From Dysgonamonadaceae bacterium (GTDB taxonomy: Bacteria; Bacteroidota; Bacteroidia; Bacteroidales; Azobacteroidaceae): DNA of 35,753 bases. The translations under genes and the position numbers were made by a program. Positions 1,856 through 22,791 of the stretch are shown one piece after another (position 1 is the stretch's first letter; the number at the start of each line of letters is the position of its first letter). The stretch is from positions 1-35,753 of the forward strand of contig JAISOJ010000058.1 of assembly GCA_031275735.1 (NCBI GenBank), in the 5' to 3' direction. Under the pieces are notes generated by a model, which was not told where the DNA came from, made no database searches, and worked only from the letters and a program-made list of their open reading frames with translations.

Positions 1856-1874
1856 TTTACGTAATCTGTTTATT

Positions 1875-3842: not shown

Positions 3843-3867
3843 AATCTTCTATTTTTTACAGTTAATT

Positions 3868-5490: not shown

Positions 5491-5533
5491 AATTGCTTTA
5501 ATTTTATATAGATTAATCTTGTTTATGTCAACT

Positions 5534-5629
5534 CGTTTACTTGTTTACTTGTTTACTCGTTTACTTGTTTACTCGTTTACTCGTTTACTCGTTTACTTGT
5601 TTACTCGTTTACTTGTTTACTCGTTTACT
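5534..5629. repeat. 12-unit tandem array of an 8-bp repeat (YGTTTACT) between susC and susD
   Basis: Twelve consecutive octamers, each CGTTTACT or TGTTTACT, run without interruption for 96 bp. Every unit differs only at its first base (C or T). The final unit abuts and supplies two bases of the susC stop codon, so the array occupies most of the susC-susD intergenic space. On the coding (minus) strand it reads as AGTAAACR units. Such perfect short tandem repeats are prone to copy-number change by slippage. Here that would change the spacing and mRNA structure ahead of susD without altering a protein. It is far too short in unit length and lacks spacers to be a CRISPR array. Confidence 0.95.
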
Positions 5630-8600: not shown

Positions 8601-8798
8601 TGTTCCGTTTGTAGCGCCTTTCTCTATTACGGAAGCCCCGAAAAGCGGGTCGCCTGTAATATCCGATACAACGCCTGAAATTTGACGATTCGACTGAGCG
8701 TAAAGCCCGGTAAGCGGGAATAGGCCAATAACAAGTATCAGGCATATTCTCCGTAAGCATTTTTTTTGCTTCGATAATAGTCTCATGTTTACATCCAT
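5628..8798 (-). CDS. SusC/RagA-family TonB-dependent outer-membrane oligosaccharide transporter
   Basis: 1056 residues. It has an N-terminal signal peptide ending near GLYAQ (about 35), then a carboxypeptidase-regulatory-like beta-sandwich (about 40-115, ISGVVSDITGDPLFGASV). The SusC-type plug follows at about 120-245, with the family phrases VRGLGTV, PLYIIDG and DVLKDAASAAIYGAQGANGV. The remainder is a long beta-barrel ending in GVNLKF with a terminal Phe, as outer-membrane barrels usually do. It imports oligosaccharides using TonB-ExbBD energy together with the SusD protein encoded next. A second ATG lies four codons inside (8786). The gene follows the GH31 gene by 66 bp with no clear promoter between, which suggests cotranscription. 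Confidence 0.96.
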   Translation of the reverse strand: MDVNMRLLSKQKKCLRRICLILVIGLFPLTGLYAQSNRQISGVVSDITGDPLFGASVIEKGATNGTVTDINGKFTLTVKENATIEISFIGFKPQTLDVGQTSVFNIVLEEELNFLDEVIAIGYAMQKKKLNTGATVQVKGGDLVKMNTLSPLQALQGQMPGVQMAATSGQPGSAMKVVVRGLGTVHSFEPLYIIDGIEGDISVLNAADIQQIDVLKDAASAAIYGAQGANGVVLITTKQGTKGKSKVSFDAYYGVQKAARKAQMLNAEEYKIIMNEQALNSGSAFSDFDAMEGLADTDWMNLMLKDDAKTENYSLNINGGSESSVYALSLNYTNQEGIVGGRDVSNYERYGFRINTEHKLYGDALKVGQHLNFNYIRNTGISVGNQYNNTLRGAFATSPLSPAYSDNNLYESPFNDTSNSPWYNGDGNPYGLMMTSTNNANDNQKLLADVYAEWQPLKNLKLKTIFGMDYYAGEYRSYTPLYRFSIYSYNEDHTTVNQNMSKGHTMTWTNTASYDFNLNETHAFSALLGMEAVRYQGTYVGASNWNLLAQFDDFAHAYLDNTTGQAHFSDDGTSIIETRYVNGSPENKYRRVSYFGRIGYNYREKYLFNTTVRIDSSSKFAQGHRAGAFPSFSAGWVMTSEDFMEATQSFLDYLKIRASWGQIGNQNIDDFQYTSPINTSTAYDAENAAAFYVFGTNKINVPGAYPNRLSNPNVKWETSEQTDIGFDARFFKRLDVNLDFYIKTTKDWLVVAPILATGGANPPVINGGNVKNTGIEMAFNWNDRIGQVNYHVGVNGAYNKNVVGEIPTDDGIIHGLINMLYDNSEEFYRAQDGHAIGYFWGYKTAGIFQSQADIDAWKADGNGILQPDVKPGDVKYVDIKKDGIINADDKTDLGNGIPDFTYGFNIGLDYKGFDFSVNAYGAVGNKIVQAYRNQTNKRSNYTTAVLGRWTGEGTSNRIPRVTDTNINWQFSDLYLQDGDYLKISNITLGYDFAKLINCKYLSQVRLYGQIQNAFTFTKYDGMDPEIGYGTDGWVSGVDLGYYPRPQTFLFGVNLKF

Positions 8799-8864
8799 TT
8801 GTTAATAGTATTTAATAATTTAAAGTAAATAATTGTTAATAATTTTCAACTGTTTTATGTTTTT

Positions 8865-11693
8865 TCACGGTACTCTTACCATTATTTCTGAGCCACTGTA
8901 TTTTATTTCCGTAGTTATCATTTTTCTATCTTTGAATATCCATTCAATAATGAATTGCCTTTCTTTGGGCATACCTCGAAATTCGCCTTTACGGTCCTCG
9001 ATAATCAAATTTTTCGAAGCTTCGCCGTAAACGAATTTGATGGAAGAATAGTCGCCTTTTTCATAATTATAGTTCGTTCCTTCATCTTCATAGAGCGTAA
9101 ATTCGCCATTGGTTCCGGTATAAACTTTCAGTATAAGATCGGTTTGCGCTTCCTGCGTATGTTGAATCACATTACCGGTTGGTAAAATAGAACCTGCGCG
9201 AACATAAAGCGGCATTCGCTCATAAGGCGCATCTACTTTCAATACTTGCCCGCCTTCTACGTACTTATTGGAGGAATATTCATACCATCCCGTATTTGCA
9301 GGGAAATAAACGTCACGCGAACGCGCTTTGTATTGGTAAACGGGACAGACCATCAAATGGGGGCCTAACATGTACTGGTCGCCGATATTCATTACGTTTT
9401 GATCGCTAGTGAAATCCATCATTAATGGGCGCATAATCGTATAATCATCGAAATGAGCCATTCCTGCCAAGGTGTAGATATAAGGCATCAACCGATAACG
9501 TAATTGTGTGTAAGCGACAATCGTTTTATAAGCCGGATGATTTTCCGGTGCAATGTTCCAAACTTCACGGGCGGGGAATTGCCCATGAGTGCGATAGAGC
9601 GGTACGAACGAACCGAACTGGTGCCAGCGTACATTCAATTCCCGCCATTCATCCCGGTCGGGAGAATTTTCTTCGGCCTGTACATATCGCCTTTCCACGC
9701 AGAAACCGCCATTATCCATTGTCCAATAGGGATTGCCGGAAATAGAGAAATTCAATCCCGCCGGAATTTGCGCTTTCATGTCTTCCCACCGGGTGGCTAT
9801 ATCGCCGCTCCAAATCGCCGCCGCATATTTTTGGGAGCCGGCAAATCCGGAACGGGTCAGTAGAAATACGCGGTTTTCGTTATTTGTTTTGCGTTGGCCT
9901 TCGTAAATGCCTTTCGCATTCATCAAACCATACGCATTAAAGTATTCGGTGGAAGATCCTAAGGCCGTTGGATTCATCAAGGCTTTGCGATACGACAGGC
10001 TTGCATTGGAAAGTATGTCCGGTTCGGAAGCGTCCATCCACCAGGCGTCGAAACCTTTGTTGTATAATTTTTCGTTCATTTGCCGCCAAAATAATTCGCG
10101 GGCGCCTTCGCTGTAAGCATCGTAAAACGAACCGACGTAACCTTGTCCGATCCAGTCTTTAATACTGTCGTTTACCGCTTGCCGGTACATCCAGCCTTTT
10201 TCATCAAATTCTTTATAATGTTGCGTGGTATGATAGAATTTCGGCCATACCGAAATCATAATCCGGGCGTTCATGGCGTGCACTTCGTCCACCATGGCTT
10301 TCGGATCGGGGAATCGCAAGGCGTCAAATTCGTGACTTCCCCAGGCGTCTTCCGGCCAGTACGACCAGTCTTGCACAATGTTGTCGATCGGAATGTTCCT
10401 GCGGCGAAATTCTTTCAGGGTGTTTAGTATCTCGTCTTGTGTTTTATACCGTTCCTTACTTTGCCAAAATCCCATCGCCCATTTGGGCATTACTTGCGCT
10501 TTTCCGGTTATAGTCCGGTAATTTTTGATAAGGTCGTCCGGTTTTTCGCCTTGGATGAAGTAGTAGTTGATTTGCCGTCCTACTTCCGACCAAAGTGATA
10601 ATTGGTTTTGTTCGGAGGGTGGCAGGGGGCTTAGGGCTTTTAACCCAATATAAGAGATTCCGCCGTCGGGCTTCCATTCTATTTTGAGTTTATGTTTTTG
10701 TCTTTTTTTCAAATCGGCGGTAAACTTATAGCTGTTCGGATTCCATGCCGTACGCCAGCGTTCGGCTACTACCGGCAAATCGTCCAAATATACTTTGGTG
10801 TAACCGGCGTAATACAAAATGAATCGGAAAAGGCCGCTTTCTTCCGGCTCGATGTATCCTTCCCAAACAACCGTCGAGTTATAGAATGGAAAATCTTTCG
10901 GGAACCGGCGGATTGTTTCCAGGTTTTCGTAGTCGATAGCGTCTTCCTGGCGGGCGATAAAGATGTTGTTTGTGTCGCCGTTTATCATATAAGTCGCCGT
11001 TAATCCGTTTTCTTTTCCGTCTTTTCCGGTTAATACGAATTGATTTAATTGGGCGTAATCGCGGGGATCGCCAAATTTGGTCAGGGAGTAATTGTCCCAC
11101 AGGAGGGCGTAGTTTTTGTTGGAAACAAAAAAGGGAACGGATACTTTCGTGTTATATTGGTACAGTACTTCGCTTTTTCCTTTATAATTAAATTCGTCCG
11201 ATTGATGTTGTCCTAATCCATAGAATGCTTCGTCTCCGGGCGATTCAAATATTTGACGCAAGGTATAGGCTTGGCGCTCGTCTATTGAAACCGGTTCAAA
11301 CGATTTTCCTCCTTCTTTTTTTTCCTGGAGAATTATGTTGTCTTGCAAGTCGGTAAAGCATATTTCGCCGGTTTTTTTCGAAATCAGGGCTTTTAATGTT
11401 GCTGTTTGCAAAACGACTTGATCTTTTGCTTCTTTGATATCCCATCCTTGCGTTTTTGTATCCGGGTAAACGGCTATTAAACTTTTTTCTTCGGGGAAAT
11501 GTTTATCGGGTGTGGCTGTTACATGGATAATGTCGTCGGTAATTACTTGGAGGCGCACTTGCCGCACACCATTGGTTGTTCGATTGCTTGGACGTACTAC
11601 TACGCCGTCCGGTAATTTTTGAACGGGCGGCGAGCCGCAAGCCGTAATCAACAGATATAAACCGAACCCGATGAGAAAATTTAGTCGCTTCAT
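8865..11693 (-). CDS. GH31 alpha-glycosidase lipoprotein with PA14 insert (alpha-xylosidase type)
   Basis: 942 residues with a lipoprotein signal (lipobox LITAC, Cys at about 19). An N-terminal GH31 beta-sandwich (about 35-240) is followed by an insert at about 250-370 that reads as a PA14 domain (VWEGYIEPEESGLFRF, then YYAGYTKVYLDD). The catalytic barrel follows, then C-terminal beta domains. The nucleophile is predicted as D554 in WWMDASEPD and the acid/base as D631 in WSGDIATRWEDM. Family knowledge: GH31 enzymes with a PA14 insert include alpha-xylosidases that remove non-reducing-end xylose from xyloglucan oligosaccharides. It is the first gene of the leftward cluster and diverges from the regulator gene. 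The xylosidase call is inferred from architecture plus context; other alpha-glycosidase specificities remain possible. Confidence 0.9.
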   Translation of the reverse strand: MKRLNFLIGFGLYLLITACGSPPVQKLPDGVVVRPSNRTTNGVRQVRLQVITDDIIHVTATPDKHFPEEKSLIAVYPDTKTQGWDIKEAKDQVVLQTATLKALISKKTGEICFTDLQDNIILQEKKEGGKSFEPVSIDERQAYTLRQIFESPGDEAFYGLGQHQSDEFNYKGKSEVLYQYNTKVSVPFFVSNKNYALLWDNYSLTKFGDPRDYAQLNQFVLTGKDGKENGLTATYMINGDTNNIFIARQEDAIDYENLETIRRFPKDFPFYNSTVVWEGYIEPEESGLFRFILYYAGYTKVYLDDLPVVAERWRTAWNPNSYKFTADLKKRQKHKLKIEWKPDGGISYIGLKALSPLPPSEQNQLSLWSEVGRQINYYFIQGEKPDDLIKNYRTITGKAQVMPKWAMGFWQSKERYKTQDEILNTLKEFRRRNIPIDNIVQDWSYWPEDAWGSHEFDALRFPDPKAMVDEVHAMNARIMISVWPKFYHTTQHYKEFDEKGWMYRQAVNDSIKDWIGQGYVGSFYDAYSEGARELFWRQMNEKLYNKGFDAWWMDASEPDILSNASLSYRKALMNPTALGSSTEYFNAYGLMNAKGIYEGQRKTNNENRVFLLTRSGFAGSQKYAAAIWSGDIATRWEDMKAQIPAGLNFSISGNPYWTMDNGGFCVERRYVQAEENSPDRDEWRELNVRWHQFGSFVPLYRTHGQFPAREVWNIAPENHPAYKTIVAYTQLRYRLMPYIYTLAGMAHFDDYTIMRPLMMDFTSDQNVMNIGDQYMLGPHLMVCPVYQYKARSRDVYFPANTGWYEYSSNKYVEGGQVLKVDAPYERMPLYVRAGSILPTGNVIQHTQEAQTDLILKVYTGTNGEFTLYEDEGTNYNYEKGDYSSIKFVYGEASKNLIIEDRKGEFRGMPKERQFIIEWIFKDRKMITTEIKYSGSEIMVRVP

Positions 11694-11715
11694 GATAATA
11701 AATTAAGATTATGTG

Positions 11716-11723
11716 CAAAGGTA
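11716..11723 (-). promoter_or_regulatory. Predicted -7 element of the GH31-SusC-SusD-SGBP-GH5 promoter
   Basis: On the minus strand this reads TACCTTTG, a perfect match to the Bacteroidetes -7 consensus TAnnTTTG, placed 22 bp before the GH31 start codon. A -33 TTTG is not obvious, as is common for promoters that need an activator. The direct repeat at 11789-11823 lies about 65-105 bp upstream of it. Confidence 0.6.
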
Positions 11724-11788
11724 AATCTATTTGTCATAGTACTAAGTATAAAATGTTTCTTTCAAAGGATAGGAATGTTTCGCGGCGA

Positions 11789-11823
11789 GGGAGTTTTGTT
11801 ATCCACTGCGGGGAGTTTTGTTA
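11789..11823. promoter_or_regulatory. Direct repeat in the divergent control region, candidate operator for the hybrid regulator
   Basis: The 13-bp sequence GGGAGTTTTGTTA occurs twice without mismatch, at 11789-11801 and 11811-11823, with a centre-to-centre distance of 22 bp, about two helical turns. It sits between the predicted GH31 and regulator promoters. AraC-type DNA-binding domains, as found at the C-terminus of the adjacent hybrid two-component system, commonly bind direct repeats on one face of the helix. The repeat is seen directly; the binding role is inferred. Confidence 0.55.
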
Positions 11824-11874
11824 ACTGTTCTTATAATATGTGGGTTTTAAATATTTTTTTTACTTCTTTTTCCC

Positions 11875-11882
11875 TATTTTTG
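11875..11882 (+). promoter_or_regulatory. Predicted -7 element of the hybrid two-component system gene
   Basis: TATTTTTG matches TAnnTTTG and lies 34 bp before the regulator's ATG. The upstream stretch is a long T-rich run with no clear -33 TTTG. Confidence 0.5.
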
Positions 11883-11916
11883 CAAGTGTAAAGAATCGTT
11901 TTATATTCTTTTTATT

Positions 11917-14900
11917 ATGAAATTGTTACGCTTTATATTCCTTATTTTTTCACTGATTGCCAACTTGTTATCTGCCGTCGCTTATAATTTTTCGCGCTTA
12001 GATAACACGAATGGGCTTTCCAACAATCAGGTTGAGTATATTTATAAGGATAGCCGGGGATTTATGTGGTTCGCAACTAATTACGGCTTGAATCGTTACG
12101 ACGGGTATGATTTTGTTTTATATAAGTCTATTCTGGGCGATAGCGCGAGTATTCCTTATAATGCCGTCAGGGATATACGGGAAGATGTGCATGGGAATTT
12201 ATGGTTCAAAGGAAATCCTTACTATACTGTTTATGATTATCGTACCGAGCGATTTATTCGAAATATATCTCTTCTGCTTCAACCGATGGGCTTGCCGGCT
12301 GATCCGACGCTTGTGGAGTTTAATAAGGAAAAGGATTATTATCTTTATTATCCGGATGATGGTATTTATTTTTACAGTGTTAAGGAGCGGGAATGTAAAC
12401 GTTACCAACAAAATTCCGGCTCTAATTCGTTAAGTGGCGGTAATATATTAGGGATCAAACCGGACGGGGATTATTGCTGGGCACTTTTTGAAAATGGTTT
12501 GTTGGAGCGTTTTAATCTGAAATCTGGACAAGTTGATTTTCGTTCGGATTATGTCTGCAAAAATAAAGAGTCTGCTGTCATTGCTAAGAATATCTTTATC
12601 GATTCGGATGGTAATCCTTGGATTTATCCCGGATTTTCGGATAAAGGCGTGCTTTTTTTGGATATGAAAACGCAAAAATGGACAGTGATTGACCGGAAGT
12701 TCCATCCCAATGTTCATTCCGACTTTGTACGTAGCGTATGTGAAGACAAAGAGGGCAGGATATGGATTGCAACCGATCATGGCGGGGTCAATATTTTTGA
12801 TAAGAAGACCAATCATATTCATGTATTGAAACATAATCCTCAAAATCCTAATTCTATCAGCCAAAATTCTACTATCAGCATTTATTGCGACGATATTGGT
12901 ACGGTATGGATCGGAACATACAAAAACGGGGTGTCGTATTATCATCCGCAGATGTTTAAGTTTGAAAAACCGCCTGTTGCTTTTTTCAATGATCAGTCGT
13001 TGGAGATAAAGGATTGTAATGCTTTGCTTGAAGACGGGAACGGTAATTTGTGGATCGGAACGAATGGCGAAGGGTTGATTCGTTATAATAAGCATACGCA
13101 ATCGTTTCAGGTTTTCAAGCATAATCCGAATGATCCGAATAGTATTTCGTCCAATATCATTATTTCTCTCTTGGAGGATCATGAAGGAAAGATGTGGTTC
13201 GGCACGTTTTTCGGCGGCCTGAATCGGTTGGAAGGAAACCGGTTTGTGCGTTACCTGCCCGACCCGAATAACAGCAATTCGCTCTCAAATAAAAGCGTTT
13301 ACAAACTGATTGAGGATCAAAATCATAATATATGGATTGCGACATTGGGCGGCGGGATTAATCAACTTGATCCGAGCCGCAAAAAATTCAAGCATTTTAC
13401 TATGTCGAACAGCCAGCAGAATTATATTCTTTCTATGTTTACGAAAGATTCCCGGAGCATTTATTTATGTACGGCTTCCGGAGTGAATATACTGGATACG
13501 GAAACGTGCAGGATTCGCCCTTGTTTCAGTAATAATGAAGAAATGGAGGCATTGACTGCCGGAACTGTTTGCAATGCGATTATTGATAGAAACGGACAGT
13601 TATGGTTGGCTACCGACAACGGTATCGTTATTTATAATTCGGAAAAAGATAAGGCTTCTTGTTTGCTTTCTGCCGACGGGCTGCCCGGCGAGCAGGTCAG
13701 TTCTCTTGTCGAAGATGAGGAGGGGAAGATATGGGCGGGAACGCGCAACGGATTGTGCTGTATCACGCCTGTAAAGCAAGACGGGAAAGTCGTTTATTCC
13801 ATCGTTTCGTTTGACGAGAAAGACGGATTATTGAGTCCTATTTGTAACCCTAACGCCATTTTTAAAACTAAAGACGGACATATTTATATTGGGTGTACGA
13901 AAGGTTATGCATACTTTGATCCGCTTTCTATTCCGTTCAATTCTCATGTTCCTCAATCTCGTTTTACGACTTTGGAAATCGGAAATCAAATCATTCGTCC
14001 GACAGAAAAATACCAGAATAAGGTAATTTTAGATCAATCTATTACTTGCTTGGATCAATTGGAATTGGATTATAATAAGAATAGTTTTAGTATTCATTTT
14101 TCGGCATTTAACTTTATTCATCCCGAAAAGAATAAATACCGGTACCGGTTGGAGGGTTTTGACCAGGAGTGGATGAATACAAAAAAGGGACAAAATTCCG
14201 CTTCTTATTCCAACCTGAATCCGGGGAATTATCGATTGATTGTTTATTCTTGCAATAACGACGATTTATGGGCGGAAGAGCCGATTGTGCTTCCGATCGT
14301 CATTCATCCGCCTTTTTGGCTTTCTTGGTGGGCTTACTCGATTTACTCGTTTTTAATTCTCGGATTTCTTTTCTTTGTCATGCGATTTCTTTTGAAACGG
14401 CAACGAGCTAAGTTTGAGCATACGAAGCGCATCATAGAGGCTCGTCAGCTACATGAAATCGATGAAATGAAATTCCGCTTTTTCACCAACATTAGTCATG
14501 AATTTCGTACGCCGCTTACGTTAATTATCAATCCGATTGAAAAGTTGTTGCATGAGGCGCATACAAGTGAAGAAAAGAACCTGTTGGGAATTATCCAAAA
14601 TAATGCGTTGAGCTTGTTGGAATTGGTTAATCAATTATTGGATTTCCGCCGGTTGGATGTGCAAAAAGAGCAATTAAATATTTCGATGGGCGATATCGTG
14701 GCTTATATTAAGGATATTTGTTATTCGTTTAGCGATTGGGCTAATAAAAAGAATATTAATCTGACGTTTACTACCGCCATCCTGGAGTTGCAAATGGAGT
14801 TTGATAAGGAAAAAATACGGAAAATTATTCGTAATCTGCTTTCTAATGCATTCAAGTTCACGTCTTCGGGAGGAAAGATCGATATCAATTTGTCGTTGGT

Positions 14901-16029
14901 TTATCAGGTTAGTTCGAATGATCGCCTTTTAAAAATCGTAGTTTCCGATACGGGAATCGGTATTTCGAATCAGCATAAAGACCGGATTTTTGAGCGTTTT
15001 TACCGAATCGAAAATCCCGGTTTGTCTTCTCAATCGGGTACCGGAGTCGGCTTGCATCTGGTGAGTGAATACGTCAAGCTGCACAAAGGGGAAGTATCGG
15101 TGGAAAGTCAGGAAGGCAAAGGTTCTACATTCACGGTTACTTTTCCGGTAAACGAATATGTTCACGAGGAGGTAATTGTTCAAAATCATGGCGAGATAAA
15201 TAAACAAGATGAAAAACCGCTTCTCCCTGTGTATAAAACGGAAGAGGGCGACAGGAATGATGGCCTGAGCAAGCCTTTGTTGCTGGTAGCCGACGATAAC
15301 GATGACTTCCGGAATTTTATAGCGATCTTGTTTAAACAGTCGTTCCGGATCATCACTGCTGCCGACGGAGTTGCCGCATACGATTTGGTGCTGAATCATC
15401 TGCCTGATTTGATTATCAGTGATATCATGATGCCTAAAATGGATGGATTGGAATTTTGCCGTCTTGTTAAGGATGATATTCGTACTTCGCACATTCCGGT
15501 TATTCTTCTGACTGCCAAAGCGTCGGATGAAAGTAAAGTTTCGGGACTTGAAGCCGGCGCCGATGATTACATTGCTAAACCGTTCAATATGGAGATGCTG
15601 AAATTGAAGGTTTCGCAATTGATCGAGCATCAAAGAAAAATACACGAAAAATTCAGAAACCGGATCGACATTTCTCCTTCCGAGGTATCTATCATGCCGA
15701 TGGACGAGAAGTTTGTGAAAAAAGCCGTATGTATTGTGGAAAATAATATTTGTAATCCCGACTTTTCGGTCGAAGATTTAAGCCGCGAAGTGGGAATGAG
15801 CCGCGTGTATTTTTATAAAAAGATATTGTCGCTCACAGCTAAGACGCCATCTGAGTTTATTCGCTTTATCCGCCTGAAACGAGTGGCCGGATTACTGGAG
15901 AAAAGCCAGCTGTATGTCAATGAAGTGGCATTCCAAACAGGATTTAATGATCTGAAATTGTTCCGTAAGTATTTCAAAGATGAATTTGGAGTTACACCGA
16001 CGGAATATAAAAAACGGTTTGAAAATTAA
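11917..16029 (+). CDS. Hybrid two-component system (HTCS) sensor-regulator of the polysaccharide utilization locus
   Basis: 1370 residues combining sensor kinase and transcription factor. A signal peptide (1-22) is followed by a periplasmic sensor of repeated beta-propeller blades, visible as recurring D.xGxxWxGT/AT phrases to about 690. A Y_Y_Y-type domain lies at about 735-795 and one membrane helix at about 798-823. The kinase core has the phospho-acceptor H861 in NISHEFRTPLT, then an ATPase domain with NLLSNAFKFT, DTGIGIS and GTGVGLHLV. A receiver domain carries D1169 in SDIMMPKMDG. The C-terminal about 100 residues are an AraC-type helix-turn-helix domain. HTCS proteins sense a periplasmic oligosaccharide and activate their cognate PUL. 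All key catalytic residues are present. Confidence 0.96.
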   Translation: MKLLRFIFLIFSLIANLLSAVAYNFSRLDNTNGLSNNQVEYIYKDSRGFMWFATNYGLNRYDGYDFVLYKSILGDSASIPYNAVRDIREDVHGNLWFKGNPYYTVYDYRTERFIRNISLLLQPMGLPADPTLVEFNKEKDYYLYYPDDGIYFYSVKERECKRYQQNSGSNSLSGGNILGIKPDGDYCWALFENGLLERFNLKSGQVDFRSDYVCKNKESAVIAKNIFIDSDGNPWIYPGFSDKGVLFLDMKTQKWTVIDRKFHPNVHSDFVRSVCEDKEGRIWIATDHGGVNIFDKKTNHIHVLKHNPQNPNSISQNSTISIYCDDIGTVWIGTYKNGVSYYHPQMFKFEKPPVAFFNDQSLEIKDCNALLEDGNGNLWIGTNGEGLIRYNKHTQSFQVFKHNPNDPNSISSNIIISLLEDHEGKMWFGTFFGGLNRLEGNRFVRYLPDPNNSNSLSNKSVYKLIEDQNHNIWIATLGGGINQLDPSRKKFKHFTMSNSQQNYILSMFTKDSRSIYLCTASGVNILDTETCRIRPCFSNNEEMEALTAGTVCNAIIDRNGQLWLATDNGIVIYNSEKDKASCLLSADGLPGEQVSSLVEDEEGKIWAGTRNGLCCITPVKQDGKVVYSIVSFDEKDGLLSPICNPNAIFKTKDGHIYIGCTKGYAYFDPLSIPFNSHVPQSRFTTLEIGNQIIRPTEKYQNKVILDQSITCLDQLELDYNKNSFSIHFSAFNFIHPEKNKYRYRLEGFDQEWMNTKKGQNSASYSNLNPGNYRLIVYSCNNDDLWAEEPIVLPIVIHPPFWLSWWAYSIYSFLILGFLFFVMRFLLKRQRAKFEHTKRIIEARQLHEIDEMKFRFFTNISHEFRTPLTLIINPIEKLLHEAHTSEEKNLLGIIQNNALSLLELVNQLLDFRRLDVQKEQLNISMGDIVAYIKDICYSFSDWANKKNINLTFTTAILELQMEFDKEKIRKIIRNLLSNAFKFTSSGGKIDINLSLVYQVSSNDRLLKIVVSDTGIGISNQHKDRIFERFYRIENPGLSSQSGTGVGLHLVSEYVKLHKGEVSVESQEGKGSTFTVTFPVNEYVHEEVIVQNHGEINKQDEKPLLPVYKTEEGDRNDGLSKPLLLVADDNDDFRNFIAILFKQSFRIITAADGVAAYDLVLNHLPDLIISDIMMPKMDGLEFCRLVKDDIRTSHIPVILLTAKASDESKVSGLEAGADDYIAKPFNMEMLKLKVSQLIEHQRKIHEKFRNRIDISPSEVSIMPMDEKFVKKAVCIVENNICNPDFSVEDLSREVGMSRVYFYKKILSLTAKTPSEFIRFIRLKRVAGLLEKSQLYVNEVAFQTGFNDLKLFRKYFKDEFGVTPTEYKKRFEN

Positions 16030-16079
16030 TATTTATATATTCATGAAACAATCATCTTTAACAAACACACAAGAGCATG

Positions 16080-16129
16080 AAAATGAGTATTCGTTTACTC
16101 GTCAACTTGTTAACTCGTTAACTCATTTT
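16080..16129. repeat. Degenerate 8-bp repeat flanked by a 9-bp inverted repeat, upstream of the GH2 gene
   Basis: Within the 103-bp gap between the HTCS stop and the GH2 start there are four octamers related to those at 5534-5629: CGTTTACT, CGTCAACT, TGTTAACT and CGTTAACT. The run is bracketed by a perfect inverted repeat, AAAATGAGT (16080-16088) and ACTCATTTT (16121-16129), giving a potential hairpin that ends 3 bp before the GH2 ATG. Relative to transcription the octamers here run in the opposite orientation to the susC-susD array. Confidence 0.75.
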
Positions 16130-16132
16130 CGT

Positions 16133-18655
16133 ATGAAACGAAAAACATTTTTATTCTATTTAAGTTTATCCTTTGTAGCGTTCTTCGTACAGGCGTGTAC
16201 CCCGGATAAAACAGAAAGACAAATCAGCGACTTTACGGAAGGTTGGAAATTTTTTTTGGGCGACGATCCTTCTGCAAAAAATAAACAGTATAACGATTCT
16301 CAATGGAGAACGCTAAATTTGCCCCACGACTGGAGCATAGAAGCGGATTTTTCGGCCGATAATCCGGCTTCGCCCGGTAGTGGCGCGTTACCGGGAGGCA
16401 TAGCTTGGTACAGGAAGGAATTTATGATAGATAAATCACTTGAAAACAAGAATATATATATCGACTTCGACGGTATATACAGGAACAGTCAAGTCTGGAT
16501 CAACGGTCAATTGTTGGGAGAACGCCCCTACGGATATATATCGTTTCGCTACGAACTTACGCCTTATATAAAAAAAGATGGGAAAAATGTAATTGCCGTA
16601 CGCGTAGATAATTCGAAGCAACCAAACTCCCGCTGGTACTCAGGCTCCGGAATATACCGCAATGTATGGTTGGTAGCGGTTAATCCGGTTCACATTGACC
16701 ATTGGGGCCTCTACGTTACGACAACCGAAGTTTCGAAACAATCCGCCAATGTACGAGTAGCCGCTACACTGAAAAACAATACCGGTGCAAAGGCAGATGT
16801 TGAACTGTTAACCACGCTTATCGACGCTACCGGCAAACACATTGCGCAGGCAAGCAACACAATCACTATCACACCTCGCAATACCGAAAAAGTAACACAA
16901 ACCCTTGTCGTGAAAAACCCTCAACTCTGGTCAATCCAAAATCCATATATTTATAAGGTATGGACGCTGGTAAAACAAGACGGGAAAGTAATAGACGATT
17001 ATGAAACCCCGACAGGCATACGCTATTTTTCTTTCGATAGCGGCAACGGATTTTTCCTGAACGGCGAGCCTGTAAAAATAAAAGGCGTATGCAATCACCA
17101 CGATTTAGGATGTCTGGGCGCTGCCGTAAACAAGCGCGCCATAGAACGTCAGTTGGAAATACTGAAAGACATGGGATGCAATGCCATTCGCACATCCCAT
17201 AACCCTCCTGCTCCCGAATTACTGGATTTATGCGACAAAATGGGGTTTCTTGTCATGGATGAAACATTCGATATGTGGCGTAAAAAGAAAACGCCTTTCG
17301 ATTACAGCGCCGATTTCCCTGAATGGCACGAAAGAGATTTAACCGACCTTATCCTGAGAGACCGCAACCATCCCTCCATATTTATATGGAGTATAGGAAA
17401 TGAAGTGCTGGAACAATGGTCGGATATAAATGCCGACACGCTGGATATGCAACAAGCAAACATGCTCTTGAACTTTGCCTATACACTGAGCAAAAAAGAT
17501 GAAAATACCCAAAACCTGCACGTTAACTCGGTTTTGACCATGAAAATGGCCGATAGGGTAAGAGAATTAGACCCCTCGCGTCCGGTTACCACAGGAAACA
17601 ACGAAGTAAATCCCGCCAACCACATCTTCCGGTCGGGAGCAATGGACGTAATCGGCTTCAATTACCATGAACACGCCTGGAACAAATCCAGTTTCCGGCA
17701 ACAGTTTCCCAACCGGAGCCTTTTAATCACCGAGTCTACGTCTGCCCTCATGTCGCGCGGCTTCTACCTGACGCCGTCGGACAGCGTGTATATCCGACCT
17801 CAAAGGTGGGATATCCCGTTCGATCATCCGGTACATCAATGCTCGGCCTACGACAATTGCCATGTGCCGTGGGGCAGTACGCATGAACAATCGTGGCGCA
17901 TAGTCAAAAACAACGACCATATCGCAGGAATGTTTATATGGACGGGGTTTGATTACCTGGGAGAACCAACTCCTTTCTGGTGGCCGTCGCGCAGTTCTTA
18001 TTTCGGGATTATCGACCTGGCCGGATTCCCCAAAGACGCATATTATATGTATCAAAGCGAATGGAGCGACAAAGACGTGCTTCATGTTTTCCCGCACTGG
18101 AATTGGAACGAAGGGGATACTGTCGATATTTGGGTATATTACAATCATGCCGACGAAGCGGAACTTTTCCTGAACGGTAAGTCTTTGGGACGCAAATCTA
18201 AACCGGAAAACGTATTTCATGTTTACTGGCGAATACCTTATCAAAAAGGCGCATTAAAAACCATATCTTATCGAAATGGTAAAGAAATATTGACAAAAGA
18301 AATAAAGACCGCCGGCGAACCCGCCTCCATAAGGCTGACAGCCGATAGACAAACTATAGCGGCCGACGGCAAAGACTTGTCTTTTGTTACGGTAGAAGCA
18401 TTAGATGCTGAAGGTAACGTCGTCCCAACGGCTAATGAGTTCATTCAATTTTATGTAGAAGGAGAAGGAACAATTGCCGGAACAGACAACGGCGACCCGA
18501 CCGATCCCAATTCATTGAAAAAACCTGCTCGAAAAATGTTTAATGGAAAAGCATTGGCAGTGATTCAATCATCTAATAAAGCCGGCATAGTAAAATTGAA
18601 GGCAAAATTGGAAAAACTAAAAAGTGCGAGTATTGAAATTAAGACAAAAAAATAA
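16133..18655 (+). CDS. GH2 beta-galactosidase-type exo-glycosidase lipoprotein
   Basis: 840 residues from the ATG at 16133. That start is chosen because it opens a proper lipoprotein signal (MKRKTFLFY, lipobox FVQAC, Cys at about 22); an upstream in-frame ATG at 15980 would lie inside the HTCS gene. Order: a GH2 sugar-binding sandwich with PHDW and YRKEF; an immunoglobulin-like domain; a clan-A barrel with acid/base E424 in WSIGNEV and nucleophile E534 in LLITES; and C-terminal domains including one with AELFLNGKSLG and an Ig-like tail. Many Bacteroidetes GH2 enzymes of this build are beta-galactosidases. In a xyloglucan-type locus it would strip galactose from side chains. Beta-glucuronidase or mannosidase specificity cannot be excluded from sequence alone. 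Confidence 0.9.
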   Translation: MKRKTFLFYLSLSFVAFFVQACTPDKTERQISDFTEGWKFFLGDDPSAKNKQYNDSQWRTLNLPHDWSIEADFSADNPASPGSGALPGGIAWYRKEFMIDKSLENKNIYIDFDGIYRNSQVWINGQLLGERPYGYISFRYELTPYIKKDGKNVIAVRVDNSKQPNSRWYSGSGIYRNVWLVAVNPVHIDHWGLYVTTTEVSKQSANVRVAATLKNNTGAKADVELLTTLIDATGKHIAQASNTITITPRNTEKVTQTLVVKNPQLWSIQNPYIYKVWTLVKQDGKVIDDYETPTGIRYFSFDSGNGFFLNGEPVKIKGVCNHHDLGCLGAAVNKRAIERQLEILKDMGCNAIRTSHNPPAPELLDLCDKMGFLVMDETFDMWRKKKTPFDYSADFPEWHERDLTDLILRDRNHPSIFIWSIGNEVLEQWSDINADTLDMQQANMLLNFAYTLSKKDENTQNLHVNSVLTMKMADRVRELDPSRPVTTGNNEVNPANHIFRSGAMDVIGFNYHEHAWNKSSFRQQFPNRSLLITESTSALMSRGFYLTPSDSVYIRPQRWDIPFDHPVHQCSAYDNCHVPWGSTHEQSWRIVKNNDHIAGMFIWTGFDYLGEPTPFWWPSRSSYFGIIDLAGFPKDAYYMYQSEWSDKDVLHVFPHWNWNEGDTVDIWVYYNHADEAELFLNGKSLGRKSKPENVFHVYWRIPYQKGALKTISYRNGKEILTKEIKTAGEPASIRLTADRQTIAADGKDLSFVTVEALDAEGNVVPTANEFIQFYVEGEGTIAGTDNGDPTDPNSLKKPARKMFNGKALAVIQSSNKAGIVKLKAKLEKLKSASIEIKTKK

Positions 18656-18689: not shown

Positions 18690-18721
18690 TTTGTATGTCT
18701 GAAAATTTTCATGTATGTTTG
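18690..18721 (+). promoter_or_regulatory. Predicted promoter of the cytochrome-oxidoreductase-isomerase operon
   Basis: TTTG at 18690-18693 and TATGTTTG at 18714-18721 are separated by 20 bp, matching both halves of the Bacteroidetes -33/-7 promoter with suitable spacing. It lies about 80 bp before the cytochrome-fusion gene and 35 bp after the GH2 stop, so the following three genes can be transcribed independently of the glycan locus. Confidence 0.5.
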
Positions 18722-18803
18722 TCTTTTGCTTTGCAAAAAAATACATATGCCTATATATGAGTTACACAAATAATACTCTTTATCTAAGGGAACTGTTCTG
18801 CCA

Positions 18804-20363
18804 ATGAAAAACGTAACGTCATCTAAATTGAAAGAAAAATTAAAGAAAAGAAAAATTTTAAAATATAAATCTTTCTATTTTTTTCTAGGGATATTCATAG
18901 GTATCTGTATGGTTATTTCCATTTACCAGACCTCGATCTATTTCTCGTCAGACGAATCGTGTATGATTTGCCATGTTCATCCGCATGTAACGGAGAGTTG
19001 GAAATTATCCAAACATGTCAATAACAACAGCGGAACCAAAGTCCACTGTGTGGATTGCCATCTTCCTCCCCAAAACCATACATGGAACTATTATTTGACT
19101 AAAACACGATTGGGATTTAAAGATATATGGGGATATCTCACTAAAGACAGCGCCGATTTTGACTGGAATCGAAAGTCGGAAATTGATTACGCTGTGACTT
19201 ATATCCCGAATGAATCGTGCAAAGAATGTCACGCCAATCTTTTTCCCGAAAAAATCTCCGATGAAGCTATTACCGCCCACTTGTATTACGAAGAAAATGA
19301 AAAAAAATTAAATCTCCAATGTATCAGTTGCCATTTGGACGCAGGCCATTTCAATCCTAATTACAAACACGAAAAAATGACCAACCTTCCGGTACGATAC
19401 GCTGCGGATACTTCATTGTATTTCAAAACGGCTACGCCGGTAAGAGTTTTTGAAAATTTTACCGAACATATACCCGGTTCGATGGTATCGTTTGAAATGA
19501 TTGCTGTTCCCGGCGGTACTTTCCGTATGGGTAGCCCCGTAGACGAACCGTTTCGGAAAGAAGATGAAGGTCCTGTCCGTACGGTAACACTTAGTCCGTT
19601 CTTCATGTCTGAAGTAGAGGTCACTTGGGATATGTATTGGACATTCTACGTAAAAACGATGAGTGAAGGCCGGACGCCTCCGGCTAATGTTTTTGCCAAC
19701 AATAGCCGCCCGGATGTTGATGCAATTTCCGGCCCTACCCCACCCTTCGGTTTTCCCGACCAAGGCTGGGGCGGAGGCAACCGCCCTGCTATCACGATGA
19801 CGCATTACGCGGCAGAAACTTTTTGTCAATGGTTATCGTTGGTAACAGGAAAGAAATACCGCTTGCCTACCGAAGCCGAATGGGAATATGCCGCACGCTC
19901 CGGCTCCGAAACGCCCTATTTTTTCGAAGGTAATCCTAAGAATTTTTCCAACAAAGGTTTTTGGCGTAAATTTTTCAAAGCAGACAGTAATACTATATCT
20001 TCATTTATTATTTATGCAAACAATAGTAAAAGTCGTACGCAGGAACCCGGTGCAGTTAAAGCAAATCCTTTGGGTCTAAAAAACATGTTGGGAAATGTAA
20101 TGGAATATTGTGCCGACAAATACGATCCGCAGGCTTACCGTAAAACGAACGAAAACGCGACGAATCCTTTGGTTACGGAAGGAACCGAATGGGTTGTTCG
20201 AGGAGGACACTACGCTTCCGATGCTGCCGACGTACGATGTGCCGCCCGCGATTATACAAAACACGACGCTTGGTTGAAAACCGATCCGCAACAGCCTAAA
20301 AGTATCTGGTGGTACTCGGACGTCCGTGGTATTGGATTCAGAATCGTATGCGAAAAGGAATAA
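18804..20363 (+). CDS. Membrane-anchored tetraheme NapC/NrfH-like cytochrome c fused to an SUMF1/FGE-like domain
   Basis: 519 residues. A basic N-terminus and one membrane helix (about 22-45) lead into four CxxCH heme c motifs at C53, C82, C139 and C173 (CMICH, CVDCH, CKECH, CISCH), in the style of NapC/NrfH quinol dehydrogenases. From about 225 to the end lies a formylglycine-generating-enzyme-like domain with GGTFRMGS, RLPTEAEWEYAAR, LGNVMEYCAD, RGGHY and GIGFRIV. The two catalytic cysteines of true FGE, normally between RGG and RCAAR, are missing: the stretch here is RGGHYASDAADVRCAAR. Sulfatase maturation is therefore unlikely, and a binding or structural role fits better, as in gliding proteins of the same fold. 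It heads an operon with two Tat-exported proteins and may pass electrons between them and menaquinone. The fusion is seen directly; the electron partner is inferred. Confidence 0.9.
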   Translation: MKNVTSSKLKEKLKKRKILKYKSFYFFLGIFIGICMVISIYQTSIYFSSDESCMICHVHPHVTESWKLSKHVNNNSGTKVHCVDCHLPPQNHTWNYYLTKTRLGFKDIWGYLTKDSADFDWNRKSEIDYAVTYIPNESCKECHANLFPEKISDEAITAHLYYEENEKKLNLQCISCHLDAGHFNPNYKHEKMTNLPVRYAADTSLYFKTATPVRVFENFTEHIPGSMVSFEMIAVPGGTFRMGSPVDEPFRKEDEGPVRTVTLSPFFMSEVEVTWDMYWTFYVKTMSEGRTPPANVFANNSRPDVDAISGPTPPFGFPDQGWGGGNRPAITMTHYAAETFCQWLSLVTGKKYRLPTEAEWEYAARSGSETPYFFEGNPKNFSNKGFWRKFFKADSNTISSFIIYANNSKSRTQEPGAVKANPLGLKNMLGNVMEYCADKYDPQAYRKTNENATNPLVTEGTEWVVRGGHYASDAADVRCAARDYTKHDAWLKTDPQQPKSIWWYSDVRGIGFRIVCEKE

Positions 20364-20405
20364 AATGAAAAACAAATGTATTATAAATTATTAAATACTA
20401 TTTTT

Positions 20406-21779
20406 ATGAAAAATAAAAACAATATCAGCAGACGAACTTTTCTAAAAAATTCCGCATTGGCCGGCGCTTTAGGTACCGTAGGAGCAAGCAGTCCTGCCTT
20501 ATTAAGCGCATGTAGCGGAAATTCCAAATCTAAAGTAAAGCCATTGAAAGAACCGGGTACCTATTATATTCCGGATTTAATGGATATAGCTCAGGACGGA
20601 CGCGAATTAAAAGCAGGTATTATTGGTTGCGGCGGACGTGGTTCGGGCGCTGCTTTTGATTTTCTAAACGCAGGTAATGGATTGACAATAACTGCATTGG
20701 GCGACACGTTCAAAGAACGTGCGGATGCTTTAGCCGATCAATTGAAAAACGACAAAGGAATTGATGTTCCTGAAGAGAGACGGTTTGTCGGATTGGAAGC
20801 TTACAAACAAGTGATTGATAGCGGTATAGATGTTGTTATCATTGCAACTCCGCCTTTCTTCCGTCCGATGCAATTCAAATACGCCGTCGAAAAAGGAAAA
20901 CACTCATTCCTTGAAAAACCCATTTGTGTAGATCCGATAGGCTATCGCTCGATTATGGCCACAGCCAAACAAGCGGCTGCCAAAAATCTTTGCATAGTTA
21001 CGGGTACACAACGCCATCATCAACGCAATTATGTGGAGTCGTACAAGAAAATCATGGAAGGCCTCATCGGTGAAATTACAGGAGGCTCTGTTTACTGGAA
21101 TCAGTCCATGCTTTGGTACAGAACGCGCGAAAAGAAATGGACGGAAGCCGAATGGATGATCAAAGATTGGGTGAACTGGAAATGGTTGTCGGGAGACCAT
21201 ATCGTTGAACAACATGTACATAACATTGATGTTTTCACTTGGTTCAGCGGATTGAAACCGGCAAGCGCTGTGGGTTTCGGTTCCCGTCAACGCCGGATTA
21301 CCGGCGATCAATACGACAATTTCAGCGTCGATTTTCTTATGGAAAATGGTATTCACCTGCATAGTATGTGCCGCCAAATTAACGGCTGCGCCAGTAATGT
21401 CAGTGAATTTATCCAAGGTACAAGAGGTTCTTGGTCGACTGCAAACGGCGAAACGGTCATCAAAGACCTTGCCGGTCAAATCGTATGGAAATACGATAGC
21501 GAAGCCGAAAAAATAAACTTCAAGCAAACGAACCCGTACGTTTTGGAACATGTGAATTGGATCAATCACATCCGTAGTAACCGGCCGATTGACCAGGCTT
21601 CGGAACTTGCGATTTCCAATATGGCCGGCATTATGGGGCGCGAATCGGCTTATACCGGCGCTGAAACAACTTGGGAACAAATGACAGCTTCTGCACTGGA
21701 TTATACTCCGGCAGATTTAAATTGGGGTAAGATGAATATGAGTACATTTACCGTTCCGATTCCGGGAACTAAAGAATAA
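20406..21779 (+). CDS. Tat-exported Gfo/Idh/MocA-family NAD(P)-dependent oxidoreductase, probable lipoprotein
   Basis: 457 residues from the ATG at 20406. This start puts the twin-arginine motif (ISRRTFLKN) near the N-terminus; another in-frame ATG lies ten codons upstream at 20376. The Tat signal ends at a lipobox-like LLSAC, implying a folded, cofactor-loaded lipoprotein outside the cytoplasm. The Rossmann fold shows AGIIGCGGRGSG (about 70-82), the family signature EKP in FLEKPICVD, and a catalytic-region motif HIVEQHVHNID with the expected His. Relatives oxidise or reduce sugar hydroxyls with tightly bound NAD(P). Exported Bacteroidetes members have been linked to glycoside 3-oxidation. 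The partners are the cytochrome fusion upstream (42-bp gap) and the isomerase downstream (5-bp gap). The substrate is unknown. Confidence 0.9.
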   Translation: MKNKNNISRRTFLKNSALAGALGTVGASSPALLSACSGNSKSKVKPLKEPGTYYIPDLMDIAQDGRELKAGIIGCGGRGSGAAFDFLNAGNGLTITALGDTFKERADALADQLKNDKGIDVPEERRFVGLEAYKQVIDSGIDVVIIATPPFFRPMQFKYAVEKGKHSFLEKPICVDPIGYRSIMATAKQAAAKNLCIVTGTQRHHQRNYVESYKKIMEGLIGEITGGSVYWNQSMLWYRTREKKWTEAEWMIKDWVNWKWLSGDHIVEQHVHNIDVFTWFSGLKPASAVGFGSRQRRITGDQYDNFSVDFLMENGIHLHSMCRQINGCASNVSEFIQGTRGSWSTANGETVIKDLAGQIVWKYDSEAEKINFKQTNPYVLEHVNWINHIRSNRPIDQASELAISNMAGIMGRESAYTGAETTWEQMTASALDYTPADLNWGKMNMSTFTVPIPGTKE

Positions 21780-21784
21780 TAATT

Positions 21785-22714
21785 ATGACGTTCAACAGAA
21801 GAAATTTTTTGAAAACATCTTTAGGAGGCGCGGCGTTTGCCGCCTTAGGAGGCGCTTCTATTGTATCCTGTTCTTCAACAGCTAAAGACAAACCGGATGA
21901 AGCTACAAAAGGAAATGTGGCCGAACTAAAGCTTTCTTTCCAGGAAGGTATCGCTCCGGGTGAAAACTTGAACGAAAAATTCGATTACATGGAAAATTTA
22001 GGCATTGTCGGTTTTGAACCGGGAGGAAACGGTCTTGCCGGACGCGTGAATGAAATTAAACAATCGCTCAAAGGACGCAGTATAAAGGTGAGCGCTATTT
22101 GCGCCGGGTTCAGAGGCTTTATTCTTTCGACCGACGAATCGGTGCGTAACGAATTTTTCAATTCAATGAAAGAAATTATCGCCGCTGCCGGAGAACTAGG
22201 CTCGGTAGGAGTTATCATGGTGCCCGCTTTTAATTCGCAAACGCCGGCATATCCGCACACACAGGAAACCCGTAATTTTCTCTGCGAGCAACTGAATACC
22301 TTGGGAAATTATGCTTCCGCACAAGGAACAACCATCATTCTTGAACCTTTGAACAGGCAAGAAGCTTTTTATTTGCGTATGGTAGCCGACGCCGCATCTA
22401 TTTGCCGAGATATTAATAATCCCAGCGTGCGTTGCATGGGCGACTTATGGCATATGACAGGGGAAGAAACATCCGACGCCGGCGCTTTACTTTCGGCGGG
22501 AGAATATCTGCAACATATTCATATCGCTAGCCGTAAACGCCGCAGTATGCCCGGCGAAGATGGGGAAGCGGATAATTACATCGCAGCTTTCAGTACATTG
22601 AAGCAACTCAATTACGACAAGTATGTATCTTATGAATGTGGGTGTCAAGGAGACCGGAGAATCGTTCTTCCGGAATCAGTAAAATTATTGCAAGAACAGT
22701 GGGCAAAAGCCTGA
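21785..22714 (+). CDS. Tat-exported sugar isomerase/epimerase-like TIM-barrel protein, probable lipoprotein
   Basis: 309 residues. A twin-arginine signal (FNRRNFLKTS) ends at a lipobox-like SIVSC (Cys at about 29), so the enzyme probably works outside the cytoplasm on a membrane. The rest is a xylose-isomerase-like (AP endonuclease 2 family) barrel. All four likely metal ligands are in family order: Glu in ILEPLNR, Asp in MGDLWHM, His in HIHIAS and Glu in SYECGCQ. Members isomerise or epimerise sugars, and some relatives cleave keto-glycosides by elimination. Five bases separate it from the oxidoreductase, so the two are surely cotranscribed. A sequential reaction, oxidation then isomerisation or lyase cleavage, is inferred. 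It is close to the usual family length plus an export signal. Confidence 0.88.
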   Translation: MTFNRRNFLKTSLGGAAFAALGGASIVSCSSTAKDKPDEATKGNVAELKLSFQEGIAPGENLNEKFDYMENLGIVGFEPGGNGLAGRVNEIKQSLKGRSIKVSAICAGFRGFILSTDESVRNEFFNSMKEIIAAAGELGSVGVIMVPAFNSQTPAYPHTQETRNFLCEQLNTLGNYASAQGTTIILEPLNRQEAFYLRMVADAASICRDINNPSVRCMGDLWHMTGEETSDAGALLSAGEYLQHIHIASRKRRSMPGEDGEADNYIAAFSTLKQLNYDKYVSYECGCQGDRRIVLPESVKLLQEQWAKA

Positions 22715-22727
22715 AAATTACCCTCAA

Positions 22728-22791
22728 ATGTTTCGAACGAAGAAAAAATCAAGTTTGACTGGCAAACAGATTTTCGCTCCGCTCGAAACAT
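22728..22791. terminator. Long imperfect hairpin between convergent genes
   Basis: TGTTTCGAACGAAG (from 22729) pairs with CTCCGCTCGAAACA (to 22790) at 12 of 14 positions. The interior adds nested pairs AAAATC/GATTTT and GTTTG/CAAAC around a short loop, giving one extended stem. It lies 14 bp after the isomerase stop codon and before the convergent CoA-transferase gene's 3' end. It has no strong U-tract, so the efficiency is uncertain. Confidence 0.6.

Follow-up and report, generated by a model that had tools for sequence, protein, structure and literature searches.

The contig JAISOJ010000058.1 of a Dysgonamonadaceae bacterium (assembly GCA_031275735.1), analysed here as one window of 35,753 nucleotides, carries three consecutive + strand genes that encode a tetraheme cytochrome fused to a domain resembling formylglycine-generating enzyme (FGE, SUMF1), an oxidoreductase of the Gfo/Idh/MocA family (hereafter Gfo) and a TIM-barrel protein of the AP_endonuc_2 family. 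The fusion gene spans 18804-20363 (519 aa), the Gfo gene spans 20376-21779 as called (467 aa), with a later ATG at 20406 that fits the relatives better, and the barrel gene spans 21785-22714 (309 aa). The spacing is tight, with 12 bp between fusion and Gfo (42 bp if the later ATG is used) and 5 bp between Gfo and barrel. Open reading frames and Pfam domains agree on this three-gene set, which a sequence-only reading of the stretch had described. Comparison across genomes reveals a new arrangement around it, namely a phylum-wide Gfo/FGE-like pair with one tetraheme-fused lineage and an ApbE linkage in the heme-free lineage.

The N-terminal region of the fusion matches PF03264 (Cytochrom_NNT; 7e-24, 84.9 bits against a cut-off of 24.1), which places it in the NapC/NirT/NrfH family. 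A single N-terminal membrane helix, at about residues 22-47 by sequence (18867-18944, +) and at residues 10-47 in a low-confidence model, precedes four invariant CxxCH heme sites at residues 53-57, 82-86, 139-143 and 173-177 (18960-19334, +). Together, these features bear out the earlier description of a tetraheme quinol-dehydrogenase-like cytochrome. The family, the single helix and the four motifs are shared with the quinol dehydrogenases NrfH, NapC and CymA, whereas the window protein differs from them in its fusion to an FGE-like domain, in falling below the NrfH equivalog cut-off (TIGR03153; 62.2 against 134.2 bits) and in carrying CHxH at heme 1, where NrfH and NapC presumably carry CHxM. 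Judged by its family, the cytochrome would exchange electrons with quinone. Four CxxCH motifs occur in 86/86 fused relatives and none in the 34 stand-alone FGE-like proteins. The predicted structure of the fusion is poor (pLDDT 65.9, loop 287-331 under 50), so no geometry is taken from it, and when only the cytochrome part is searched against the PDB, no match rises above chance level (best E 0.13).

The C-terminal FGE-like domain, delimited by Pfam and alignments to residues 231-484 (19494-20255, +), matches PF03781 (FGE-sulfatase) at 6.5e-40. In all four printed FGE-chain alignments that reach this point, Ser472 is the partner of an FGE active-site Cys, which we take to be the first of the active-site pair. 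Cys occupies this position in 0/120 clade members; window residues 473-478 also contain no Cys, the place of the second active-site Cys lying outside the alignments. The residue at 472 and its counterparts across the clade thus make the domain FGE-like rather than FGE: the cytochrome fusion described earlier is real, but its FGE label is wrong. A role as sulfatase maturase is ruled out by the missing first cysteine, and a partner domain is the more fitting description. Among solved chains its best match is PvdO, and the model cut-offs for PvdO, EgtB and SenA are all missed widely. The domain therefore shares PF03781 with the FGE/PvdO/EgtB superfamily but departs from it through the replaced cysteine, a clade-specific loop and a constant Gfo companion.

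The Gfo protein, read from the later ATG (20406-21779, +), matches GFO_IDH_MocA (PF01408) and the C-terminal (C3) domain above cut-off, which assigns it to the family, and it carries an invariant K171 (the EKP lysine), H272 and D100. Its twin arginines R9 and R10 and lipobox C36 are invariant in 37 aligned rows, as are R5, R6 and lipobox C29 of the barrel in 25 aligned rows. These invariant positions are a strong sign that both proteins are exported as Tat-type (twin-arginine translocation) lipoproteins, in line with the Tat export proposed earlier for the two enzymes. The Gfo model is of better quality (pLDDT 84.7), and a second-look aligner ranks an unassigned oxidoreductase, oxidoreductive sulfoquinovosidases, DgpA and levoglucosan dehydrogenase at the top, with glucose-fructose oxidoreductase (GFOR) slightly lower; ties and identities of 14-22% make a precise call from this ranking impossible.

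A functional parallel is provided by BT2158 of B. thetaiotaomicron, described in the available part of PMC11300592 as a periplasmic glycoside 3-dehydrogenase. BT2158 is an exported Gfo/Idh protein of gut Bacteroidales, as export is predicted for the window Gfo too, and it is needed for disaccharide use (PMC11300592); the fusion genomes likewise carry the 3-keto-disaccharide hydrolase family (PF06439). The window Gfo differs in standing outside the BT_2158 equivalog (NF058561; 26.9 against 750 bits), and the main text of PMC11300592 contains neither the word cytochrome nor FGE. The hydrolase family has 5 matches in the bacterium's own genome and occurs in 24/25 fusion genomes (G022 being without it) against 31/72 others; among the matches listed, it lies <1 kb from a Gfo copy in G038, G041, G076 and G004. 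Fold kinship, hydrolase co-occurrence and the BT2158 parallel make C3 oxidation of glycosides the best guess for the Gfo activity, yet a guess it stays, as the protein falls outside the BT2158 family.

The barrel matches AP_endonuc_2 and TAT_signal in Pfam, and its predicted metal ligands E187, D220, H246 and E284 (within 21785-22714, +) are invariant in 25 rows. Among solved structures 3kws is close (2.9e-139) and 3-keto-D-glucoside 4-epimerase more distant (1e-28). In Agrobacterium, barrels labelled sugar phosphate isomerases have turned out to be an eliminase of 3-keto-glycosides and, putatively, a hydratase (PMC10628242). The Tat-type signal and the barrel fold announced by the earlier reading therefore stand, but the isomerase label does not follow, and the protein may instead be an eliminase, hydratase or epimerase. 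The Agrobacterium operon of GlycDH, AtOGE, AtHYD and Gfo, which proceeds through oxidation, elimination, hydration and reduction, resembles the window set in glycoside 3-oxidation and TIM-barrels, so far as the accessible part of PMC10628242 describes it; it differs in that GlycDH performs the first oxidation there, in place of a Gfo partnered by a tetraheme-FGE protein.

Conservation of the trio, set beforehand as the check on the earlier proposal, is borne out. In a contig scan for fusion relatives, with the best 80 of 147 kept, Gfo lies beside the fusion in 73/80 loci and the barrel in 68/80, under titles including Parabacteroides, Tannerella, Dysgonomonas, Massilibacteroides and uncultured metagenome-assembled genomes (MAGs). 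Seven of the 80 have neither gene beside the cytochrome; L039, L041, L042, L046, L047, L067 and L035 are MAG loci in which the cytochrome-FGE gene sits among unrelated genes with no Gfo adjoining. For the other five barrel-less loci, the contig ends before or within the barrel in L084, L090, L101 and L111, and L088 has Gfo only. When 97 genomes of relatives are scored (Gfo at E <= 1e-60, barrel at E <= 1e-40), a full-length fusion is present in 25, G002 holding a 60-residue piece, and Gfo occurs in 25/25 fusion genomes against 3/72 others (Fisher p 3e-20, which like all co-occurrence p values here ignores shared ancestry). Two of those three, G002 and G018, carry partial copies, and the third, G044, is 53% complete. 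Gfo lies on a different contig from the fusion in G008, G009, G033 and G035, both being kept in the genome. The barrel is found in 20/25 fusion genomes against 1/72 others, so that cytochrome-FGE and Gfo make up an invariable core that the barrel often accompanies. TatC is present in 81/97 relatives and in 20/25 fusion genomes, the five without it being 74 to 87% complete.

Several loci show variations on this arrangement. In G005 (L009, G005:C51), the fusion, a second Gfo, the first Gfo and the barrel stand in a row, G038 (C4, C2) has two fusion copies with an own Gfo for each, and G082 has seven Gfo matches and one fusion. Many Parabacteroides/Tannerella-type loci place a RIC-like protein and a LuxR-type regulator after the trio (e.g. 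L057:11936-12631, L080:12632-13210). Additionally, 9/86 fused loci, from Dysgonomonas and others, have a cytochrome c assembly gene of CcsBA-like type after the trio (e.g. L038:6259-8586, the copy that was Pfam-scanned).

Beyond these relatives, the pair extends through the phylum. Among 392 genomes, judged as Bacteroidota from named relatives and searched at E <= 1e-60 with <=3 (FGE) or <=4 (Gfo) candidates scored per genome, so that additional or weaker copies may have escaped the search, the fusion profile matches 37, in only three of them (G000, G432 and G433) through the cytochrome part. The remaining 34 encode a stand-alone, heme-free FGE-like protein in open frames 320 to 428 aa long. 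Gfo occurs in 70/392 genomes, including 37/37 FGE-like-positive ones (p 9e-33), and the stand-alone gene lies <=1.5 kb from Gfo in 29/34 genomes, usually in the order FGE-like, then Gfo. The wider partner of Gfo is thus the FGE-like domain, not the cytochrome; the cytochrome proposed earlier as Gfo's partner is kept with Gfo in all 25 fusion genomes of the 97 scored, but the widest partner stands alone and heme-free in 34/37 genomes. In a 64-row tree (34 rows for stand-alone proteins, 4 for outside homologs and 26 for fused proteins, of which the 86 fused loci supplied 22 and the 97-relative scan 4), fused proteins form one group (support 100/99) and stand-alone proteins another (96/96), so the hemes were gained or lost once in this sample. 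No publication on the pair or on the tetraheme fusion was found, judged by titles and abstract openings.

Some stand-alone loci differ from this pattern. In L135 and L136, the FGE-like gene has no adjoining Tat-type Gfo; its neighbours there are genes that are Tat-type, bear CxxCH or, by eye, look YceI-like. In L158, L163, L164, L166, L169 and L173, FGE-Gfo pairs share their surroundings with barrels, another Gfo and a gene of the gluconate 2-dehydrogenase subunit 3 type; three of these six also have a GMC-type gene, a likeness to the Agrobacterium-type 3-oxidation operon (one member per cluster scanned), whose GlycDH we take to be a GMC flavoenzyme.

NADH donates hydride and heme takes single electrons, with flavin as the usual bridge. 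A match to ApbE, the FAD:protein FMN transferase, lies <=3 kb from the FGE-like or Gfo gene in 20/34 stand-alone genomes, against 0.25 expected from random placement of their 70 ApbE matches; in one of the 20, G263, the match is to a fragment that contains a stop codon, and the 34 genomes are not independent, several being closely related. Moreover, the clade-specific loop DAISGPTPP (residues 306-314; 19719-19745, +) has the spacing of the ApbE flavinylation motif D-x-x-[ST]-G-A-[ST], as given in the part of PMC12052999 seen, with Pro for Ala. Its seventh residue (window residue 312) is Ser/Thr in 120/120 clade members, and the pattern is absent from five FGE homologs outside the clade. The FGE-like domain could accordingly be pictured as an unrecognised redox module that carries or docks a covalent flavin mononucleotide (FMN) installed by ApbE, takes hydride from Gfo-bound NADH and passes on single electrons, and that was fused once to a tetraheme quinone cytochrome, although this picture appears distinctly unlikely. 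The strict motif occurs in 1/120 FGE-like proteins (L159, DAISGAT), and the window, with DAISGPT, does not carry it; Pro replaces Ala in 118/120, the 34 stand-alone members have Gly in 1 and Arg for Gly in 27, and ApbE is found in 6/86 fused loci (five titled Dysgonomonas, one Prevotella sp. 10(H)), all of which count against an FMN carrier. The looser D-x-x-[ST]-x-P-[ST] fits 111/120, and 7 of the 9 others have Ala at the fourth position; that Ala in L169 (ELIARPS) and L172 (DAVARPS), despite ApbE in the locus, weakens the motif argument. Within the Gfo and barrel clusters, the strict motif is found in 0/159 and 0/86, respectively. The main text of the flavinylation survey PMC8238504 has no FGE, formylglycine, Gfo, NapC or NrfH, and that of PMC11334425 no sulfatase, Gfo or NapC. 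The clade thus resembles ApbE-flavinylated extracytosolic redox systems in its gene neighbourhood but differs in its motif, and the ApbE connection is a lead rather than family membership.

Promoter-like and terminator-like elements flank the three genes. A Bacteroidetes-type promoter-like element, TTTG-N20-TATGTTTG (18690-18721, +), which we take to be the motif of that group, is a pattern match 82 bp 5' of the cytochrome start and is weak by itself, with 5 matches in the window against a mean of 1.8 in shuffles; a sigma-70 promoter scan of the window performs at chance level. A hairpin 3' of the operon (22728-22791, +) is stable (-26 kcal/mol for the folded stretch, z -4.3) but lacks a T tract and is not among the calls of a terminator scan of the window, itself at chance level. 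The tight spacing agrees with the compact operon proposed earlier, its promoter and terminator being less secure. Upstream on the same strand lie a hybrid two-component regulator and the GH2 (glycoside hydrolase family 2) beta-galactosidase GalB (15980-18655, +; 936.6 bits against a cut-off of 900), a possible functional neighbour, and farther upstream on the opposite strand lie GH31, SusC/D-type genes and BACON-GH5. The region beside the trio (161-18655), with GH5-BACON, SusC/D-type genes, GH31 with PA14, the regulator and GalB, presumably resembles a xyloglucan-type utilisation locus.

Taken as a whole, the operon may be read as an extracytoplasmic glycoside redox module in which NAD(H) bound to Gfo exchanges electrons, via the FGE-like domain, with a quinone-linked cytochrome, a reading whose chances we consider about even. 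On family grounds, the Tat-exported, lipid-anchored Gfo, with NAD(H) held on the protein, would oxidise a glycoside or oligosaccharide at one of its ring hydroxyls, C3 being the likeliest position; the barrel lipoprotein would then epimerise, eliminate or hydrate the keto-sugar, and bond cleavage would be finished by 3-keto-disaccharide hydrolases encoded elsewhere. The FGE-like domain, to judge from co-occurrence, would act as the dedicated partner of Gfo through docking or electron exchange, and in the fusions the Gfo cofactor and the menaquinone pool would exchange electrons, with sugar the likeliest donor and quinone the acceptor. The conserved trio, the invariant Tat-type signals, the fold kinship with NAD-dependent glycoside-oxidising enzymes and the near-constant hydrolase family agree with the glycoside oxidation coupled to menaquinone put forward earlier, but inositol dehydrogenases come first for Gfo in both Foldseek order and sequence profile, where DgpA is listed too. 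Further points weigh against the module: the distance of Gfo from the BT_2158 equivalog, the seven cytochrome loci with neither enzyme alongside, the barrel missing from 5/25 fusion genomes at the threshold used, the 33 genomes of the phylum sample with Gfo and no FGE match, the neglect of ancestry in the p values and the failure to find TatC in the bacterium's own genome, which is 76% complete. Heme accepts electrons singly and not as a hydride, so that a direct step from NADH to heme would require a further carrier, and with the stand-alone domain in 34/37 FGE-positive genomes, the pair does not depend on the cytochrome.

The sequence-only reading had reasoned that exported NAD enzymes cannot recycle a bound cofactor and that a cytochrome is the logical outlet. 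This premise is too strong, because GFOR of Zymomonas regenerates its bound nicotinamide by means of a second sugar and, unlike the proposed module, needs no cytochrome. Gfo might likewise be redox-neutral, its NAD(H) recycled by a second sugar or within a keto-glycoside cycle, with the FGE-like domain structural or substrate-binding and the cytochrome serving another purpose; this is rather unlikely, since one conserved heme and FGE-like fusion is kept with Gfo in 25/25 genomes and ApbE near the heme-free pairs suggests a redox role. The direction of flow is a separate matter, as NapC/NrfH proteins normally oxidise quinol, opposite to the flow proposed for the module. If the cytochrome, in keeping with its PF03264 match and with the direction described for NrfH relatives (PMC12285233, in the part available), oxidised menaquinol, Gfo would reduce keto-sugars or other carbonyls outside the cytoplasm; neighbouring sugar-utilisation genes, the keto-disaccharide hydrolases of the same genomes and the kinship with glycoside-oxidising folds favour oxidation, and reverse flow is unlikely.

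Two further explanations assign the chemistry elsewhere. The FGE-like part could be a catalytic FGE or nonheme-metal domain that modifies or oxidises a substrate with electrons fed by the cytochrome, as its FGE-sulfatase match and the top rank of PvdO would allow, but the Ser at the first active-site position, the absence of Cys there throughout the clade and the missed PvdO, EgtB and SenA cut-offs render this improbable. A role in stress or detoxification, in which the cytochrome and the RIC-like protein after the trio in Parabacteroides handle nitric oxide or a similar compound and the sugar enzymes are passengers, draws on a merged RIC-like and LuxR-type cluster in 51/86 fused loci and on a match to the RIC model TIGR03652 (9e-14, but 51.7 bits against a cut-off of 204.7). 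However, the RIC-like gene is neither downstream of the window trio nor among the neighbours listed for five Dysgonomonas-titled ApbE loci, and Gfo is the commoner companion (78/86 fused loci), which leaves this explanation very improbable.

The glycoside redox module bears on the long-standing question of how a nicotinamide cofactor that stays on an exported enzyme is recycled outside the cytoplasm, a question made directly testable by a phylum-wide, constant Gfo companion that was once fused to a quinone-type cytochrome. If the module operates as proposed, the unassigned FGE-like family would gain a likely redox role, and commensals such as Parabacteroides may link glycoside breakdown to respiration, beyond fermentation alone. 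Collectively, the Gfo/FGE-like pair carried by members of the Bacteroidota, including gut species, suggests a little-studied form of extracellular sugar attack tied to respiration.

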